Assembly: GCA_903822425.1 (NCBI GenBank)
Contig: CAIJOY010000007.1
Location: 1 to 64,000 of the forward strand
Reading direction: 5' to 3'
DNA length: 64,000 nucleotides
DNA from: an uncultured Actinomycetes bacterium
Lineage (GTDB): Bacteria; Actinomycetota; Actinomycetes; Nanopelagicales; Nanopelagicaceae
Part shown: piece by piece, positions 17,427 through 27,778 of the stretch
Position numbering within the stretch: the first letter of the stretch is position 1
Layout: each line of letters starts with the position of its first letter
Position numbers and translations under genes: made by a program
The notes under the pieces: generated by a model
The model's input: the letters and a program-made list of their open reading frames with translations, nothing else
Told to the model about the DNA's origin: nothing
Databases searched by the model: none

Positions 17427-18448
17427 CCGCATTTTTAGAGGTTAAAGATCTTAAAGTTCACTTTCCCACCGAAGATGGTGTTGTTAAGGCAGTAGATGGT
17501 CTTTCATTCTCAGTTGAACGAGGAAAAACTCTAGGCATTGTGGGCGAATCTGGTTCAGGTAAATCTGTTACCAGTTTGTCGATCTTGGGATTACAAAAAG
17601 GAACACGAGCACAAGTATCAGGTGAAATCTGGGTTGATGGTAAAGATATCAATGCATCATCTGAGGCAGAAGTAAGAAAACTTCGCGGAAAATCGATGGC
17701 AATGATTTTTCAAGACGCCCTTGCTGCCTTGCACCCATATTTCACCGTTGGTAGTCAGATCGCTGAGGCATACCGAGTTCATAATAAAGTTTCTAAAAAA
17801 GTGGCGATGTCACGTGCGATCGAAATGTTGGATCGTGTTGGAATTCCAGATCCAGCAAAACGAGCAGGGGATTTCGCTCACCAATTCTCGGGAGGCATGC
17901 GCCAACGTGCAATGATTGCCATGGCACTCTCGTGCAACCCCTCACTTTTAATTGCTGATGAGCCAACCACAGCGCTAGATGTGACCGTGCAAGCACAAAT
18001 TCTTGATCTACTTCGTGATTTGCAAAAAGAATTTGGTTCAGCAATCATTTTGATTACTCACGATTTGGGAGTTGTTGCCGAGACTGCCGATGATGTTTTG
18101 ATTATGTATGCTGGGAAAGCGATTGAATTTGGATCAGTGCGTGAAATCTTGCAGCGTCCACAACACCCATACGCATGGGGCCTGCTTTCATCCATACCTC
18201 GTTTAACTGGGGCTGCAGATGCACCGCTTCTGGCAATTCCAGGGACTCCACCAAGTTTGATTTCGGTGCCAGGTGGTTGTGCTTTCCACCCGCGCTGCAG
18301 CTATGTATCAAGAGTTGGCGCGGCCTGTAACCAAGAAGTTCCACTCTTGCTATCAGTAGAAGCTGGCGCCACCCACCAAGTGCGCTGTCACCTAGATCGA
18401 TCAGCGCGCACTGAGATCTTCGCCAAAGAGATTGCCATTAACCTATGA
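17423..18448 (+). CDS. Dipeptide/oligopeptide-type ABC transporter ATPase (DppD/OppD-like)
   Basis: [63 protein letters not shown]. Confidence 0.94.
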
Positions 18449-19410
18449 CCGCCTTATTGAAAGTTGAAAATCTCACTAAACATTTCCCTGGCGGCAAAGA
18501 GGGTCTGTTTGCAAAGCGCGATGTTGTTCAAGCAGTTGATGGCGTCTCCTTTGAAGTTGAAGCCGGTGAAGCACTTGGTTTAGTCGGGGAATCCGGATGC
18601 GGAAAATCCACAACTGGACGATTAATTACTCGCTTGCTGGAACCTACAAGTGGCTCGGTCACTTTTAATGGCCAGGATATTTCGCATCTTTCACAAGCGC
18701 GCTTGCGTCCAATTCGCTCAGAGTTGCAGATGATTTTTCAAGATCCTTATGCTTCTTTGAATCCCCGGCACACTGTGGGAACAATCGTTGCCACGCCGTT
18801 GCAGATCAACAAGATCAACCCGCCTGGGGGAGTCAAGAAGACCGTGCAAGAACTTCTTGAAATTGTTGGGCTCAACCCAGAGCATTACAACCGCTACCCA
18901 CATGAGTTTTCTGGTGGACAGCGCCAACGAATTGGTATTGCACGAGCACTCGCACTTCGGCCAAAACTGATTGTTGCAGATGAGCCAGTTAGCGCCCTCG
19001 ATGTTTCGATCCAAGCCCAAGTTATTAATTTGCTGCAGGATCTTCAGAAAGATTTTGGCCTTTCATTCCTTTTTATTGCTCATGATTTAGCTGTTGTTCG
19101 CCATTTTGCCCAGCGAGTTGCAGTGATGTATCTAGGAAATCTTGTTGAGATTGCTGATCGCGATACTTTGTATGCAACTCCGCGCCATCCATATACAAAA
19201 GCGTTGCTTTCAGCTGTACCTGTCGCAGATCCTGATGCAGTGGGAGCGCGTGAAAGAATTCGTTTAAGTGGAGATGTTCCTAATCCGATCAACCCACCCT
19301 CTGGCTGCCGTTTCCGCACACGGTGTTGGAAAGCTCAAGAGATTTGTTCAACTGTGCCACCGTTGTTGCAGATCGGTAAGAGCTCAGTTGCCTGCCATTT
19401 CCCTGAGTAA
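18445..19410 (+). CDS. Dipeptide/oligopeptide-type ABC transporter ATPase (DppF/OppF-like)
   Basis: [58 protein letters not shown]. Confidence 0.94.
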
Positions 19411-19419
19411 GATCAGTTC

Positions 19420-20457
19420 ATGACGACATCCCTTGGCGTGATTATGCGTGCCGAAATTGAGGAAGTTCCAACAGTTTTTGAGCGAATAAAAACATCTGCC
19501 GAAAGCATGAAAGCACAAATTGCTACTTTGCCATTATCAACAATTGATTCGGTGATTTTGGTTGGCCGCGGAACTTCAGACAATGCAGCGCTGTATTTGA
19601 AATATTTGGTCGAAACCAAGATTGGGATTCCGTGTGGGCTGGCTTCACCATCTGTAGTCTCCATTTACGGGACTAAATTGCGATACAAAAATGTTCTTGT
19701 TATTGCGCTGAGCCAAAGTGGCCAATCGCCAGATTTAGTTGGATATTGCACTGCAGCTCGTGAAGGTGGCGCAACAGTTCTGGCCATGACAAATGATCCT
19801 GAAAGCCCTATGGCCAAATCTGCCCACTGTCATTTGTATTTACATGCGGGCCCTGAAAAGGCAGTTGCCGCAACCAAGAGTTATTCTGCTGAGCTATTGG
19901 TATCACGAATTTTTGTTGCAACATGGAGTGGTGAGCGCGTCGATATTGATTCCATCATTACCCAAACTAAATCCAACTTAGCCCAATCTGCTCAGATCGA
20001 AAAGATCGCACAATCCTTTGACTACAGCGGTGGTCTAACCACGATGGGACGCGGATATTCTTACGCAAATGCACACGAGGCTGCTCTTAAAATTCAAGAG
20101 ACAGTGAAGATTCCCGTTGCATCATTCTCATCTGCGGATTATTTGCATGGACCCATTTCTTCTCTACACGAACAATCGCGTGTGCTCTTTTTGGCACCAA
20201 TTGGAAGTTCTGAAAGTTCCATGGCTTCAACCGTTGAGCGTATTCGCCTCATTACCTCACATATTTATTGGATCGGTGCAGGGTTTTCTCGTGATTCCGA
20301 TGAGCAATATCTAGGTGGCGCCGTGGGACTTTCTGAGATAGACGCAGTCATCGCTGACAGTGCACTGTTGCAATTATTGGCATTATTTTTGGCAATTGCT
20401 GCGGGAAAAAATCCGGATGCCCCGATTGGCCTTGCAAAAGTTACCAAAACGATCTAA
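19420..20457 (+). CDS. SIS-domain sugar isomerase/deaminase; NagB-II-like glucosamine-6-phosphate deaminase candidate
   Basis: VGRGTSDNAALYLKYLVET...IALSQSGQSPDLVGYCTAAREGGATVLAMTNDPESPMAKSAHCHLYLHAGPEKAVAATKSY: two SIS domains, no glutaminase domain. Confidence 0.8.
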   Translation: MTTSLGVIMRAEIEEVPTVFERIKTSAESMKAQIATLPLSTIDSVILVGRGTSDNAALYLKYLVETKIGIPCGLASPSVVSIYGTKLRYKNVLVIALSQSGQSPDLVGYCTAAREGGATVLAMTNDPESPMAKSAHCHLYLHAGPEKAVAATKSYSAELLVSRIFVATWSGERVDIDSIITQTKSNLAQSAQIEKIAQSFDYSGGLTTMGRGYSYANAHEAALKIQETVKIPVASFSSADYLHGPISSLHEQSRVLFLAPIGSSESSMASTVERIRLITSHIYWIGAGFSRDSDEQYLGGAVGLSEIDAVIADSALLQLLALFLAIAAGKNPDAPIGLAKVTKTI

Positions 20458-20501
20458 CCGCGTTATAGGATTACTCACATCCAACTGGGATCGGAATCCT
20501 A

Positions 20502-21101
20502 TTGAGCCGCAAGAGTGAAGTTGAATTCTCCCTCTGGGTGCGAGAGCGCCAGAGCGCATTCTTACGCGCGGCCCGTGTGATCTGTTTTGATGCTCAAAAT
20601 GCAGAAGATGTCCTACAAGAGGCGCTAGCAGATGTTTTCCAGCGTTGGGATAAATTAAAAGATCATGAAAATCCTGAGGCTTATTTAATGCGCGTAATGG
20701 TGAGCAAACACGCCGACATGCGGCGTAAATGGTGGCGGCGCCAACAAGAAAATGAAACCTCTTGGGAGTTGGCTGAAAATATTCGCTCCATTGCCGATCA
20801 ATCCGATGATGTAGCCCAGCGCCTGCTTGTTCAATCTGCTCTCAAATCTCTGAGTGCTGCTCAGCGTGCAGTCTTAGTGTTGGTCTATGAACACGGCATG
20901 GTCTTGCGTGAAGTTGCACAAGTTTTAGAACTTCCCATTGGAACCGTGGCTTCCCACTTAGCCCGAGGCAAAGCCGCCGTTGCAGCGCATATAGATTTAG
21001 TACCAGAATTTGAAAAATCCATCAAGAAGTCTTTAGCCCCAAGCAAGGTCAGCCAGAATGATGAGATTGAATTAGCGGAAGTGGTTGAATCCAATGAGTG
21101 A
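20502..21101 (+). CDS. ECF RNA polymerase sigma factor, SigE family (TTG start)
   Basis: AEDVLQEALADVFQRWDKLKDHENPEAYLMRVMVSKHADMRRKWWRR; region 4: LSAAQRAVLVLVYEHGMVLREVAQVLELPIGTVASHLARGK. Confidence 0.9.
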   Translation: MSRKSEVEFSLWVRERQSAFLRAARVICFDAQNAEDVLQEALADVFQRWDKLKDHENPEAYLMRVMVSKHADMRRKWWRRQQENETSWELAENIRSIADQSDDVAQRLLVQSALKSLSAAQRAVLVLVYEHGMVLREVAQVLELPIGTVASHLARGKAAVAAHIDLVPEFEKSIKKSLAPSKVSQNDEIELAEVVESNE

Positions 21102-21759
21102 TGTCGAGCCATTAATCAAACGCGAACTTCAGTGGATGGCACTGGGTGTGTTAGAAAATCGTGACCTAGCTGAACTAGCTTTGTATCGAGTTCGCCGCCG
21201 CCGTATTAAACGTGCGGTGAAGTTAGTGGGCGCAGTCTTTGTTGCAGCATTCGCCGTTGTTGGTTTAGTTGCTGCAATTCATGGAACATCAGCCCTAATC
21301 GGTAACAAAAGTGGGCAAGTATCTCAAAGTTCAACTGATGCTCTCAGTTCGATGACATTGCAGTCACAAATCGAGGGCTTAACTTCTGACTATCCCATTA
21401 CATGGGAGCAAAGTGTTGGCGATACCGGGGCTATCAGCAAAGCTGGCGGACTTGGTGACACACTGGGAGGATTAACGGCGCAAGGATTGAAAGTTTCATG
21501 GGAACAATGCAATGGTGCACAATGTCCCATTACATGGACTCTCAGCGTTATCAACAACACAGGTGACATTGTTTCGGTCAACCCTGCACTGATGATCTTT
21601 GTTAATCACTCACCAGTTGTGAGCGCCTCGCGTCCCACAACTGTGACACCGGGTGGCAGTGCAGTGTTGGTCTATAACTTCCCTGAATTTCAGAGCTCCC
21701 TGAAGCCCTCGGCCGGTGCCTCCTGGCAGTGGAACTGGTTTTTGACCTCTCTCAACTGA
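21094..21759 (+). CDS. Single-pass membrane protein with extracytoplasmic domain; putative sigma-factor partner
   Basis: Start overlaps the sigma gene end; basic N-terminus, one TM (LVGAVFVAAFAVVGLVAAIHG), then an extracytoplasmic Ig-like region. Confidence 0.55.
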   Translation: MSDVEPLIKRELQWMALGVLENRDLAELALYRVRRRRIKRAVKLVGAVFVAAFAVVGLVAAIHGTSALIGNKSGQVSQSSTDALSSMTLQSQIEGLTSDYPITWEQSVGDTGAISKAGGLGDTLGGLTAQGLKVSWEQCNGAQCPITWTLSVINNTGDIVSVNPALMIFVNHSPVVSASRPTTVTPGGSAVLVYNFPEFQSSLKPSAGASWQWNWFLTSLN

Positions 21760-21884
21760 AATCAGCGGTAATTGCACGCTGAGATGAGTGTCAGCACTAT
21801 GCATAAATCCCTCTATAAAATACGGTGTACCTATTAATCGCTAGCACTGGGCTGGCAATCATAACCTTGTTTGAGGGAGTAAAA

Positions 21885-24116
21885 GTGAAAAAAACCGCAA
21901 TCGCGAGAGCAACTGCTTTAGCAGTTCTCGCAGGCCTCTTTGTTGGGCTAGCCCCCGCAAACGCTGTTGTGATCCGAGTTCCTAAAACTGCGATGCAGGC
22001 CTGTGCTGTTGCACCCGGAATTTATTGCGTTGAGTCTGTAACTGTTACAGATTCATCTGGCAAGAAGATTCCTTTGCTCTACGTACCAAGTGGTGCAGAT
22101 GTCCCACAGCAAAAGACTCCATCTGACTTTTTCGCACCTGTGGCCAGAATGGTTGGCGGCAAAGTTGTGCAAAATGACTGGTGGATGTCGCAATACCAGC
22201 GCGATCCATTGACATCAGGAAAGTTAGTTGTTCAAGATCAGTCGGCTCTCCTTGGAACTGCTAATTTTCCAGAACAAGGCGCGATCTATGATCCTGTCAC
22301 TAAGAAGTTTGATATCAATAAGCCAGAAGATACTTATGCCCAACCTGTAGATTGCTGGGATCCGGTAGCACAAAAGGGCACACAAAAGCCATTTAGTGAT
22401 TGCTTCAAGGGTGCAAACGTATTCTTGCTTGATAACACAGTCCAATACATTTATTACTACCCAACACCTGCTGCAGCTGCCTCAGAGAATAAGAACTTCA
22501 AAGCCGCAACCTTTATTGATCTGGCAGAACTCTCTGCCCTTCAGCAACGTCCTACATTCGGGGCAACTTACGATGCGGCTACAAAGACATTCTCTTCAAC
22601 CGAGTCAATAGTTATCCCTCTATGGGTTACCCAGAATGCACTCGTCAACGGTTGGGCAGTTGCCGGAACAGTTGCAACAGTTCCAACAGTTGCAGCAACA
22701 GGTGCTGGTCCATTTACCAATACACCGTGCTCTGCTGCTGAATTAGCTGGCACAACTGGCGTAGGTATTCCTGAGACTCCAAGCCATGTAAAACTCACCA
22801 TTGATGCAGTTGGCGTGAAAGTTTGGTGGGATGCTCCTACCGGACCAGCGCCAGCAAGCTACACAGTGACGGGCGTTAATACCGGCGCTGTTATAAACAA
22901 GTCCACCGATGTTGGAGCAGTCTCCTGCGTTATTTTGACATGGGATTCATTTGGCGCAACAGGTGACAAATTGCCTACAGCAGCCAACCGATACGATGGT
23001 TTTTGGTTCTGGGTTGGCGCAGTTGCGACCTCTGGAACTAACTCCGGTTTCAAAGCGTGGGTCAATGATGCCTATGCAGAGAATTACACGGATCCAACAG
23101 GTGCTTTAACGCCACCACTTTCACCAGATCCTGCAACAACAGTGGGGCAACCAGCTGAGGCAGGCCGTGTACTTCCTGGACGTTGGACAAGCCCTAACTG
23201 GCAAGGTCTTAACCTTGGATCACTGGGATATGACGGACTCTACGTTGAAGCGAAATCTGCAAACGAGTTCACAAACATCTTGATGATTGACGTATTGCCA
23301 ACACTTACTGGCGCTGACAAGAAAGTAAATCTTGCCGGTCAAGTAGGAAATAAGGCATATGCAACCAGCCTTGATCCAGATGTCGTCATCTCTGTAAAGG
23401 TTCGCACAGGTCAAATGACACCTGGTGTAACAGTTGCAATCGGCGCAGATGTTGTCATCAATGGACAAAATGAAGGTGAATACACCTCCATTACTATGAC
23501 TGGTACTGCAGTCACAGTTCCATTGGCTGCAAAAGCTGCAGACTGCACAGGTGAAGCTGGAATTTCTAAGGCGAATGTTCGCCAATTCCAAGCAATTGTC
23601 CTTCCTTCCAACGATGATATGTCCGGATTTGGTGTCGATGGCACCTCAGGTGACATGTACATTGGATCCAATGGTGTCTGCTCTTTGAGCACGCCAACAT
23701 GGGATAACGCGACAAAGAGCTTTAGCTGGCAAACATCAGCACCACACTTTGCTCCAGATGGAGTCACAGTTAACCGTGGCTTCTACAAAGCAATCATCCC
23801 AACAGGAGATGCTGCAATTCTCTGGGGAATGACAAATCCTAATGATGCAGCTACAGCGCTCTCCGTTTCTGTTTCAACAGAAGCCGGTGGAAGCACTGCA
23901 GCGATCAGCAAGATTTCTGTTAAGAACGGGAAGATCATTATCGATGTTTCCGGATTCCAGTTCTCTCGTCCAAAACTTCGCATCGGTTTGAAGCCTGGCT
24001 ATAAGGCATCTAAGCCAGTGGCCAAGGCTTCAACGGTCACATGCGTTATGGGCAAGACAACAAAGAAGGTCACTGCGGTTAGTCCAAAGTGCCCTGCTGG
24101 ATATAAGAAGAAGTAA
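21885..24116 (+). CDS. Large secreted protein, unknown function, C-terminus ...TVTCVMGKTTKKVTAVSPKCPAGYKKK
   Basis: GTG start at 21885 followed by a Sec signal (KKTAIARATALAVLAGLFVGLAPANA); shares a C-terminal region with the next gene. Confidence 0.8.
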   Translation: MKKTAIARATALAVLAGLFVGLAPANAVVIRVPKTAMQACAVAPGIYCVESVTVTDSSGKKIPLLYVPSGADVPQQKTPSDFFAPVARMVGGKVVQNDWWMSQYQRDPLTSGKLVVQDQSALLGTANFPEQGAIYDPVTKKFDINKPEDTYAQPVDCWDPVAQKGTQKPFSDCFKGANVFLLDNTVQYIYYYPTPAAAASENKNFKAATFIDLAELSALQQRPTFGATYDAATKTFSSTESIVIPLWVTQNALVNGWAVAGTVATVPTVAATGAGPFTNTPCSAAELAGTTGVGIPETPSHVKLTIDAVGVKVWWDAPTGPAPASYTVTGVNTGAVINKSTDVGAVSCVILTWDSFGATGDKLPTAANRYDGFWFWVGAVATSGTNSGFKAWVNDAYAENYTDPTGALTPPLSPDPATTVGQPAEAGRVLPGRWTSPNWQGLNLGSLGYDGLYVEAKSANEFTNILMIDVLPTLTGADKKVNLAGQVGNKAYATSLDPDVVISVKVRTGQMTPGVTVAIGADVVINGQNEGEYTSITMTGTAVTVPLAAKAADCTGEAGISKANVRQFQAIVLPSNDDMSGFGVDGTSGDMYIGSNGVCSLSTPTWDNATKSFSWQTSAPHFAPDGVTVNRGFYKAIIPTGDAAILWGMTNPNDAATALSVSVSTEAGGSTAAISKISVKNGKIIIDVSGFQFSRPKLRIGLKPGYKASKPVAKASTVTCVMGKTTKKVTAVSPKCPAGYKKK

Positions 24117-24149
24117 CTCAGCTCCACACATAACGGGGTAGAAAACAGG

Positions 24150-24195
24150 GATCGCCTCGCCACTTGAGAAATCAATGGCGAGGCGATCTTTTCTT
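24150..24195 (+). terminator. Intrinsic terminator after the first secreted-protein gene
   Basis: GATCGCCTCGCCA...TGGCGAGGCGATC 13-bp stem followed by TTTTCTTTC. Confidence 0.85.
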
Positions 24196-24214
24196 TCATC
24201 AGGAAGGCCATTAA

Positions 24215-25834
24215 ATGAAGTTGCGCAAGGCACTGCTTTTGTTGGCGCTATTTCCGATTCTTCTCACTGGTTTTTCTTCGGCATCGGCCACCGAAGTCCC
24301 ATCAAATAAGTATTTGTGGCCCCCTGTGTGGAATGGGAAAACTGATGTCAGCGCTCAACCAATCACACATTATGCCTTCGAAATTGTTGATACTTTTAAC
24401 TCGGGCAGTACTGACTGGAGCTTTATTCGCGTAGCAACTCCTGGACCCCAGCCACTGTGTTCTAGCTTAAATGATTCCTATTGTGTGCCACTTGCAGAGA
24501 AATATGGTTGGTGGATTATTCGTGTTCTCCCAGCCTGCAAGAGTGCAACGGATCTGAGTGATTGCATCGAGGGGTTGAGCATTGCATCGGCTGATGGACA
24601 GAAACGAGAACTTCGATTCCTCAAAACTTTGGAAAAATCTGGGATTACTGCTGACCCTGTGCGTGGACTAGGAGAAGGTTCTGGAAGTAGTTTGTGGGTA
24701 GAAAAAGGTTCTGACGATTCCACTGGTTACATGGTCACCGTTAGCGGTGATGCTGGCGGAAGTTTTTCTAGTAGTTCATTTCCACTCCAGAACTTTGCAG
24801 CTACCGTCGTGCCGTATAAGAAATATTTAGGTGACTTTAAAGCTCTCCATTGGAGTATCAATGACACTACTCACCAGGGACAGGGATCATCAACGAACGC
24901 TCCCTTGGATTGCATCTGGACTGATACGGGTGAGTGTGGAGTAACTTCTGAATTTCCAGAAGATTCGAGAATTAGTTTAAGAGTGCATCTTCCCGCTTCG
25001 ATGACGGGCTGGCTCATCGGGCGACTAAAAACACCCAACATTAATGTCGAAGAGATCTCTCCTTCAATGGGAGAGAAAATTGGTGTGAATCGTGTGACCG
25101 TAGATGCTCTGCCAGTTAATTTACCAATGGTAGCCGCTGCTGCTCCAGTCAATGAAGCAACCCCGTTAGTTCTTGGCCTCTGGAAAGACAATATTTGCCC
25201 TGAATGCGAGCATGGGATTTGGGGTGTTAACGTTGCAAGCAGTAATCCAAATGCCTTTGATATGTTAAAAATATTTGATAAATGGATTGGTAACAAGGCA
25301 CTCCTGTCGGTACCGACGTGGTCGGTTTCTAGCTTGATTGGATCAACTCAAGAGTTAGTAGGGTGCAACAAAGTTTCAAGAAAATTGCAAGGATTAGTGA
25401 CCACTAATGCCACCGCCTATGAAGGCAAACCTCCAACTTTTGATGGAACTTCTTTAAATTACAAACTGGCAGGAGTTCATTACGCAGCAGATGGCACCGT
25501 TTTCCAAGGTTCCTATGATTTACTGCTAAGTTCTGATGCAGCTCGTTGTTTATACAAATTTACAAACGCTCCTATTCAAGCGGTGGTTTCTGTGACTTCC
25601 TCCGATGGAGAAACCCGTGCCTCCACCTCGGTGTTGAGTGAAAAGGATGGTTGGCTCCATCTTGCTGCTTATGGTTTTACTTTCTCAACCCCCACGATCA
25701 AGATTCAATTGACTCAAAGTAAGGCAACGCCCGTAATCGCCAAGAGAACCACAATTACCTGCGTTAAAGGTAAAGTAAGCAAGTCGATTACGGCGATAAA
25801 GCCGACCTGTCCTTCTGGGTACAAGAAGAAGTAA
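24215..25834 (+). CDS. Secreted protein, unknown function, C-terminus ...TITCVKGKVSKSITAIKPTCPSGYKKK
   Basis: Signal peptide MKLRKALLLLALFPILLTGFSSASA; C-terminal region homologous to that of 21885..24116. Confidence 0.8.
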   Translation: MKLRKALLLLALFPILLTGFSSASATEVPSNKYLWPPVWNGKTDVSAQPITHYAFEIVDTFNSGSTDWSFIRVATPGPQPLCSSLNDSYCVPLAEKYGWWIIRVLPACKSATDLSDCIEGLSIASADGQKRELRFLKTLEKSGITADPVRGLGEGSGSSLWVEKGSDDSTGYMVTVSGDAGGSFSSSSFPLQNFAATVVPYKKYLGDFKALHWSINDTTHQGQGSSTNAPLDCIWTDTGECGVTSEFPEDSRISLRVHLPASMTGWLIGRLKTPNINVEEISPSMGEKIGVNRVTVDALPVNLPMVAAAAPVNEATPLVLGLWKDNICPECEHGIWGVNVASSNPNAFDMLKIFDKWIGNKALLSVPTWSVSSLIGSTQELVGCNKVSRKLQGLVTTNATAYEGKPPTFDGTSLNYKLAGVHYAADGTVFQGSYDLLLSSDAARCLYKFTNAPIQAVVSVTSSDGETRASTSVLSEKDGWLHLAAYGFTFSTPTIKIQLTQSKATPVIAKRTTITCVKGKVSKSITAIKPTCPSGYKKK

Positions 25835-25843
25835 GGAGTTGAG

Positions 25844-26824
25844 ATGATTCGAGCTTTTATTAGCCGGCGCAAATTCATTGTGAGCTTTGCTGCGATCTTT
25901 CTTGCTTACCTAGCAGTAGTTGTCTTGATTTCACAAACAAATACAGGCGCAGCAGATTCGATCGATACAGCGCTTCAAACTGCTGTCGGTGATGAACGTA
26001 TGGATGTCTTAATCCAAATCACCGAAGTTGATCCGCTCAAAGGGACGGCACTAGCGCGTATTTTGCCATGGCCAAATTCAGAAAATCTTGGGTATAAATA
26101 CAAGAGCGGTTGGCTTCCAAGAAAAGATATTACTTTCCATGTGGATTCCATTATTGGATCAAGTCCTACAGGCAACAACTTGTATCAATTTGCGAAGGGA
26201 GATCCAGTAGGCGGATTTGATGTTCAAATTGATGAGCAACCAGGAGATTCAAGCCATTCCAATGTTTCGTGGTATCCAATGGATGAATACGCATTTGAAG
26301 TTCCCGTCACTGGTACTTATGTTGATAATAAAGGCAAAGTTCAAGATATGGCAGTTTTGCCTTTGGATTACACAAAGGGAAGCGATACTTTTGATATCCA
26401 TATGACCCATGGATTCTGGAGTGATCCCAACAGAATTGTTTCCATGTCTGATGCGACTTCCGTTCACGATGCTGCAGATGAAATGAAACATGGATTTTCT
26501 TCTTCTGTCTTTACAGCGCATCGTTCAAATTCAACAAAGTTACTTGTAATTATCATTTTGCTATTAATGCTAACTGCCCTTGCTTCTGTGAGCATCATGG
26601 CTTATATGGTTGTTCATGGAATTCGACCACCTACGCTTTCAGCTCTTATTTGGAGTGCGGCACTAACTTTTTCTTTGATTTCTCTTCGTGATCTCTTACC
26701 GGGCAAACCACCCGTGGGGATCTTTATCGATAAACTTGTCTATTTCCCGGCGCTGATTACGACTCTTTCTTGCTCACTGTGGATCTTGCTTATTTGGTCA
26801 ACCCGCGAGGATTTCGAAAGCTAA
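25844..26824 (+). CDS. DUF4436-like membrane protein
   Basis: N-terminal TM, extracytoplasmic region with WYPMDEYAFEVPV, C-terminal TM helices with RDLLPGKPPVGIFIDKLVYFP. Confidence 0.6.
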   Translation: MIRAFISRRKFIVSFAAIFLAYLAVVVLISQTNTGAADSIDTALQTAVGDERMDVLIQITEVDPLKGTALARILPWPNSENLGYKYKSGWLPRKDITFHVDSIIGSSPTGNNLYQFAKGDPVGGFDVQIDEQPGDSSHSNVSWYPMDEYAFEVPVTGTYVDNKGKVQDMAVLPLDYTKGSDTFDIHMTHGFWSDPNRIVSMSDATSVHDAADEMKHGFSSSVFTAHRSNSTKLLVIIILLLMLTALASVSIMAYMVVHGIRPPTLSALIWSAALTFSLISLRDLLPGKPPVGIFIDKLVYFPALITTLSCSLWILLIWSTREDFES

Positions 26825-26845
26825 GGCTTCCGATAAGGTAGCGCT

Positions 26846-27778
26846 GTGAGCAAAACAGTTCCGGCATTTATCGATCTACAAGTCAATGGGCACGGCGGAA
26901 TCGATATTTTGTCGATCACTTCGACAGATGAACTGCGCTCTGTGGGCCGCTCTCTTTGGTCTCAAGGAGTGCAGGCCTACCTGCCTACATTGATCACTGG
27001 CCCATTGGATCGAAGCGTTGAAGTGATGAAATTAATTGAGCAGGTGCGTAGATCACCGCGCGAGGATGAAGCAGAAATTATTGGCATTCATCTAGAGGGA
27101 CCGTTTCTTTCACCAGAAAAACCAGGGACACATCCTCTGAATTTCCTACGGCTTCCAACGCGAGAGCTGATCGGTGCTTATTTGGCAGCTGGCACAGTCA
27201 CGATGGTCACGCTTGCACCAGAACTTCCTGGCGCTTTGGAAGCTATTGAATTTCTTACGCAGATGGGAGTGATTGTTTCATTGGGACATTCCAATGCAAC
27301 TGCAGCACAAGCACATGCTGGTTTTGATGCTGGCGCTCGGTGCGTGACACATATCTGGAATGCCATGAACAAAGATCGCCAAGCTGGCGTTGCAGCTGCA
27401 GCCCTTGAGCGAGAAGAGATTTACATCATGATGATCATTGATGGCCAACATCTTGATGATGATCTTGTGAAATACACGATCGATAAAGCACCGCAGCGCT
27501 TTATCGTCACTAATGATGCAATCGTTGCTGCAGGCCTTGGAGATGGAAGTTTCCCTTTTGGAACATTTGAAATAAACGTCAAAGATGGCCGGGCCACCAG
27601 AGCAGATGGAACCCTCTCGGGGGGAGTGGGATCCCTGAAGGATTCCTTGGCAAGGATGTTGGCCTTAGGGGTGGATTTTGATAGCGCCCTTGCCAGCATT
27701 ACTTCTCGTCCCGGCGAACTCATTGGCCGGCCAGAACTTGGCCAATTGAGCCTAGGTATCCGAACGACAGTGGTGTAA
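26846..27778 (+). CDS. nagA: N-acetylglucosamine-6-phosphate deacetylase, short form (GTG start)
   Basis: HLEGPFLSPEKPGTHP, LGHSNATAAQAHAGFDAGARCVTHIWNAMN, IIDGQHLDDDLV, VTNDAIVAAGLGDG; 310 aa. Confidence 0.85.
   Translation: MSKTVPAFIDLQVNGHGGIDILSITSTDELRSVGRSLWSQGVQAYLPTLITGPLDRSVEVMKLIEQVRRSPREDEAEIIGIHLEGPFLSPEKPGTHPLNFLRLPTRELIGAYLAAGTVTMVTLAPELPGALEAIEFLTQMGVIVSLGHSNATAAQAHAGFDAGARCVTHIWNAMNKDRQAGVAAAALEREEIYIMMIIDGQHLDDDLVKYTIDKAPQRFIVTNDAIVAAGLGDGSFPFGTFEINVKDGRATRADGTLSGGVGSLKDSLARMLALGVDFDSALASITSRPGELIGRPELGQLSLGIRTTVV

Follow-up and report, generated by a model that had tools for sequence, protein, structure and literature searches.

We describe a run of five genes from a member of the Nanopelagicaceae that is likely to form a combined regulatory and structural module, in which a membrane-gated ECF sigma switch would control exported proteins carrying a common C-terminal tail. 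The genes lie consecutively at 20502-26824 of the window (the whole 64,000-nt stretch of DNA that was analyzed), all on the + strand, as a sequence-only reading had described, and are referred to here as SIG, PART, SEC1, SEC2 and DUF4436 (Table 1). The same reading proposed a sigma/anti-sigma switch over surface proteins. Our sequence comparisons support this proposal and would extend it to a regulon of several loci, with the qualification that a putative promoter was found upstream of SEC1 and of unlinked genes, but not of SEC2 or DUF4436. The TTG start of SIG is backed by an orthologue alignment. For PART we place the start at the ATG at 21094 rather than at 21085, because the former is conserved in orthologues; the gene overlap noted earlier is thus one of 8 nt. 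SEC1 is assigned a GTG start (21885; 21825 in the list of open reading frames), as indicated by its orthologues and by a ribosome-binding site. The proposed terminator was recovered as a hairpin (24150-24188) followed by a T-run, with a folding energy of -35.3 kcal/mol for a 66-nt stretch; a hairpin scan missed it because of its loop limit of 8. Three related loci (L050, L051, and L054) contain hairpins of different sequence at the equivalent place.

Table 1. Features of the five-gene locus, in window coordinates
Feature	Position	Strand	Basis
SIG, ECF-type sigma factor, 199 aa	20502..21101	+	Pfam Sigma70_r2, Sigma70_r4_2
PART, single-pass membrane protein, 221 aa, probable anti-sigma factor	21094..21759	+	Conserved start, TM 44-62
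Promoter-like motif GCATAAA-N15-CGGT, 5' of SEC1	21801..21826	+	Kept in module loci
SEC1, exported protein, 743 aa, signal peptide, GYKKK tail end	21885..24116	+	Orthologue alignment, hydropathy
SEC1 tail mini-domain C-x15-CPxGYKKK	24024..24113	+	Tail collection
Intrinsic terminator, SEC1/SEC2 gap	24150..24195	+	Folding
SEC2, exported protein, 539 aa, GYKKK tail end, paralogues genome-wide	24215..25834	+	Paralogues, structure model
SEC2 tail mini-domain, predicted beta hairpin	25742..25831	+	Tail collection, structure model
DUF4436 membrane protein, 326 aa	25844..26824	+	PF14494, hydropathy

Judged by its sequence, SIG is an ECF sigma factor, a sigma-70 family protein in which no regions other than 2 and 4 are present (above cut-off in Pfam: Sigma70_r2 with 32.4 bits, Sigma70_r4_2 with 44.4 bits), and it matches NCBIfam TIGR02937 with 64.5 bits (cut-off 42.9). 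The SigE label given earlier stands insofar as TIGR02983 is the best NCBIfam match, yet the score of 111.4 bits is under the curated cut-off of 141.55. The Nanopelagicaceae genomes checked encode no more than three or four sigma factors each. Five closed module genomes of one genus (g2) encode four sigma region-2 proteins, compared with three in eight module-free genomes of the same genus, and the additional protein is SIG.

PART has the single-pass topology that had been predicted for it. A hydropathy analysis locates one trans-membrane helix at residues 44-62, preceded by ∼43 cytoplasmic residues and followed by an external domain. The PART orthologues share a start sequence (MSD[VI]DPLI), and their ectodomains are conserved as well. 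Three divergent SIG homologues have partners whose N-terminal 40 residues are 35-38% identical to PART from the window, whereas their ectodomains align at 13-20% only, a pattern that would fit a sigma-binding segment mounted on exchangeable sensors. A relationship between the PART ectodomain and SEC1 was considered and rejected, as the two showed no similarity. Class I anti-sigma factors have a cytoplasmic domain of more than about 50 residues; PART is shorter and matches no known anti-sigma family in Pfam or NCBIfam, and its length and topology are instead consistent with the short segment of class II (CnrY-like) proteins, with no sequence match in the PDB. We take PART to be most likely the membrane-bound inhibitor of SIG. 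It could alternatively act as a positive co-factor or as a plain membrane sensor, with SIG being controlled by its own synthesis, and the missing family match and small cytoplasmic part are compatible with such a role. We consider this rather improbable, given that the SIG and PART genes overlap and that the N-terminal segment is kept with the sigma factor while the ectodomains change; moreover, binding through a short segment is known from class II anti-sigma factors, CnrY among them (PMC7406223).

Among the closest known designs is CnrH-CnrY from Cupriavidus metallidurans, in which an ECF sigma factor is likewise encoded beside a single-helix partner with a very short cytoplasmic segment, and a comparison of SIG with PDB sequences gave CnrH (4cxf) as one of its weak matches. 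PART differs in lacking a PDB sequence match and in its ectodomain, the target genes are others, and no CnrX-like gene was seen. In Streptomyces, BldN-RsbN pairs an actinobacterial ECF sigma factor with a membrane partner and controls surface proteins, the chaplins and rodlins. SIG-PART may similarly control surface proteins, but SEC1 and SEC2 were not chaplins or rodlins in any search, the promoter sequence is another one, and there is no sporulation context.

SEC1 and SEC2 had been noted to have a common C-terminal region. The tail is indeed common to both, but their likeness is wider: their profiles align over ∼250 columns with 99.85% probability, and by this comparison the two proteins are homologous well beyond the tail. 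Apart from the signal peptide, neither contains a trans-membrane helix by hydropathy. SEC1 has no Pfam match above cut-off, and SEC1, SEC2 and PART returned nothing usable from Pfam, NCBIfam, PHROGs, PADLOC or PDB sequences. Structure prediction, suggested earlier as a check on the secreted proteins, gave a β-rich SEC2 model of good confidence (mean pLDDT 84.9) and a SEC1 model with a long low-confidence insert; Foldseek searches found no match at E ≤ 0.001 for SEC2 (PDB and viral structures) or SEC1 (PDB), and weak matches to glycan enzymes were left unused. We attribute to chance a 'Phloem protein 2' match in seven SEC2 members (best E 6e-4) and myelin P2 matches to SEC1. The last gene encodes a DUF4436 protein, as had been suspected (PF14494, 71.0 bits versus a cut-off of 23.2), with one N-terminal trans-membrane helix, an external domain and at least two C-terminal helices by hydropathy.

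We searched 151 genomes of the order, all from the family Nanopelagicaceae, with PART. Matches were obtained in 26 genomes, 23 of which contain orthologues, while in three (G023, G044, and G136) the N-terminal part only is matched. The SIG-PART pair is present in these 23 of 151 genomes and SEC1 in 22 of the 23; in the remaining genome (G094) the locus breaks off at a contig end. DUF4436 was found in 16 of the 23 module genomes (in some outside the module) versus 4 of 125 other genomes. The genes thus co-occur in relatives; a failure to do so had been named as one outcome that would refute the module. Another such outcome, a sigma regulon without these genes, was addressed computationally through the motif described below. 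In the fetched neighborhoods SIG, PART and SEC1 follow each other in this order, as a rule with one to four SEC2-type genes behind them. DUF4436 often completes the module but can also lie 5' of SIG or be absent; it is a frequent but optional member. The chromosomal site of the module varies: the window and most g2 genomes have it between what we take to be secY-adk-map and rpsM, and other genomes elsewhere, for example after a presumably WecA-like gene. No phage, plasmid or viral-contig homologue was found that would make it a mobile element. A scan of 84,980 species returned 38 loci; where the names are informative they point to actinobacteria of fresh water, among them Ca. Planktophila lacus MMS-21-148 and IMCC26103. 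A few titles of metagenome-assembled genomes among them (Bifidobacterium breve, Streptomycetaceae) look mislabelled.

The tail is a C-terminal mini-domain, C-x15-CPxGYKKK, which in the genome of the window is found on 15 proteins, among them unrelated ones (a trypsin-like protease, a coiled-coil protein and small exported proteins). An AT3-SGNH acyltransferase of another genome, a membrane protein (L102 5187-7253), likewise ends in it. The two cysteines are separated by 15 residues in 74 of 74 distinct tails, although our filters permitted spacings of 8-26. The tail is present in 116 of the 151 genomes, with up to 23 tail proteins in one small genome, and outside the family in one genome from a sample of 395 of the class; it is nearly confined to Nanopelagicaceae. 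In the SEC2 model the tail forms a well ordered β-hairpin, and it looks like one closed by a disulfide. The tail-bearing trypsin-like protease (L238 372-1304; L080 4151-5158) also occurs in a genome with one tail protein only, and may therefore represent an older use of the tail.

Several unrelated exported proteins bear this tail at their C terminus, often behind a Pro/Thr-rich linker and with a basic end, as would be expected from a sorting signal cleaved by a dedicated enzyme of the LPXTG or MYXO-CTERM type. With MYXO-CTERM (PMC11980579), too, a short C-terminal sequence that contains Cys marks dozens of mutually unrelated exported proteins in a genome. The GYKKK tail, however, has two cysteines and no trans-membrane helix ahead of the basic end; the missing helix is also at odds with PEP-CTERM-type signals, and no matching protease was found. 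A search with positive controls, which matched, detected no sortase in ten genomes, and the absence of a membrane helix beyond the signal peptide likewise separates the tail from LPXTG substrates. In addition, tandem and internal tail copies are found in an exported family of ∼740-770 residues (L105 9385-11610, L231 998-3298, L232 797-3082, and L233 253-2490), some with a C-x16-C variant. A cleaved signal is thus unlikely, and the modularity of the tail, its tandem and internal copies and its fixed Cys spacing, together with the predicted ordered hairpin, favor a small retention or binding domain. Such a domain probably keeps the exported proteins on the cell surface, a location to which their signal peptides and the tail point.

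In most module loci the PART-SEC1 gap contains a promoter-like motif, YGCATAAAW-N13-RCGGTR (GCATAAA-N15-CGGT); where a short SEC1 directly follows PART, the motif precedes the long SEC1. There is one match in the window (0.05 expected), and none 5' of SEC2, DUF4436 or SIG. Bases flanking the queried motif are also constrained in 53 distinct sites, with A/T at +7 in 53 of 53. AAC at -35 and CGT at -10 are a common hallmark of ECF promoters, which is no longer part of the defining ECF features (PMC8103513); the boxes GCATAAA and CGGT lack the AAC core at -35.

We judged the putative regulon from whole-genome pattern searches and from fetched stretches. A weight matrix trained on the SEC1 sites scored ≥12 at 28 of 104 tail genes versus 8 of 505 others. 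Because training sites and a few sequences fetched twice are counted among the 28, the whole-genome pattern search serves as the independent evidence. The eight matches at other genes are confined to the three loci that encode divergent SIG homologues, and two of them precede SIG. The search of 11 module genomes gave 31 exact intergenic matches at spacing 15, of which 28 precede canonical tail genes; 10 of these 28 genes are SEC1, and many others are far from the module. One further intergenic match precedes a variant tail (CPEGWVKK), and seven exact matches inside genes were set aside. Spacings of 14, 16 and 17 gave mostly intragenic matches, taken as chance, and in one genome (G098) a spacing-16 site precedes a tail gene. 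The mean motif count is 3.43 in the 23 module genomes, 0.73 in 11 tail-rich, module-free genomes and 0.70 in the rest, with a reversed pattern giving 0.73-0.96 in all groups; the genomes are related and some sites are common to close relatives, so that P-values overstate independence and are indicative only.

The motif is enriched in genomes that contain the SIG-PART pair or divergent relatives of it, and tail-rich genomes without the pair remain at the background count; its distribution thus tracks that of the sigma factor rather than that of the tail. A different regulator or sigma factor could read the motif, with SIG-PART travelling with the genes but not controlling them. This finds some support in that module genomes do not have the motif 5' of SIG, and that in a module-free genome (G057) it still precedes a tail gene (L105). 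It appears improbable to us in view of the background counts in tail-rich genomes, of the divergent SIG homologues, which have the motif beside tail-less genes and twice before SIG itself, and of the closed g2 genomes compared, in which SIG is the one sigma factor that the module-bearing ones have in addition. We thus favor recognition of the motif by SIG. In the genome of the window, exact copies of the motif lie in front of two tail genes, SEC1 and the unlinked L072, and a near match was found at a further one, L071; the genes for most of the 15 tail proteins lack it, so the candidate regulon would cover a minority of them. Four genomes (G025, G034, G118, and G124) encode many tail proteins and no SIG pair, and the tail family can therefore do without this switch.

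Three divergent SIG-PART pairs (L082, L083, and L084) are located beside other large exported proteins without the tail and have the same motif, which in L083 and L084 precedes SIG. L082 (9001-9855) and L084 (4857-5711) have in common a 284-aa exported protein, with the motif upstream of each and with a C terminus that we read as fibronectin-like. A module-free genome encodes a 505-aa protein near two tail genes (L104 10807-12324), whose sigma-like part is 27.9% identical to SIG.

Taken together, our analyses suggest a regulated, previously undescribed cell-surface coat. In the proposed mechanism, the short cytoplasmic segment of PART would hold SIG, and its ectodomain would read a cue from the envelope or the outside. 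Once released, SIG would direct transcription from YGCATAAAW-N13-RCGGTR promoters, both at SEC1 and at unlinked tail genes, while SEC2 and DUF4436 could be transcribed from other promoters or by polymerase that reads through the terminator. The tail proteins would leave by the Sec route, in line with their signal peptides and the lack of a trans-membrane anchor, and be retained on the surface by the C-x15-CPxGYKKK tail; DUF4436 may help in retention or assembly. Instead of binding nutrients or mediating adhesion, the SEC proteins might form a variable coat or decoy that reduces phage attack or grazing. The many divergent paralogues, the large tail complement of a small genome and the patchy distribution speak for this, but with no phage, defense or adhesin match we regard it as somewhat unlikely.

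Control of envelope genes by ECF sigma factors and their membrane partners is well established. What appears new from our comparisons is the family of exported proteins, its tail and the sequence of the putative promoter, together with the connection to a lineage that dominates in fresh water; searches of the open-access literature, which leaves out most subscription papers, returned no description of module, tail or motif. We tentatively propose, as a possibility somewhat short of even, that the tail is a new surface-retention mini-domain and that SIG-PART defines a new ECF subgroup whose promoter is non-canonical and which switches a lineage-specific surface coat in these abundant bacteria of fresh water. 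The Nanopelagicaceae (acI) rank among the most numerous bacteria of lakes. The large number of tail genes and, in some lineages, a dedicated sigma factor point to an important, unstudied interface with the outside, for which nutrients, particles, phage or grazers are candidates, and the motif provides a ready-made candidate regulon for cultured strains.

In the window (18445-27778) the module splits a group of amino-sugar genes: genes for a NagB-II-like SIS protein and dipeptide-type ABC genes precede it, and NagA follows. Module loci of other species do not have these genes at the corresponding site. One locus (L052 9282-11222) contains an MFS-type transporter reading frame of 646 aa with an internal near-exact repeat, which is 387 aa long in L053 and L055 and is thus possibly a duplication or an assembly artefact.
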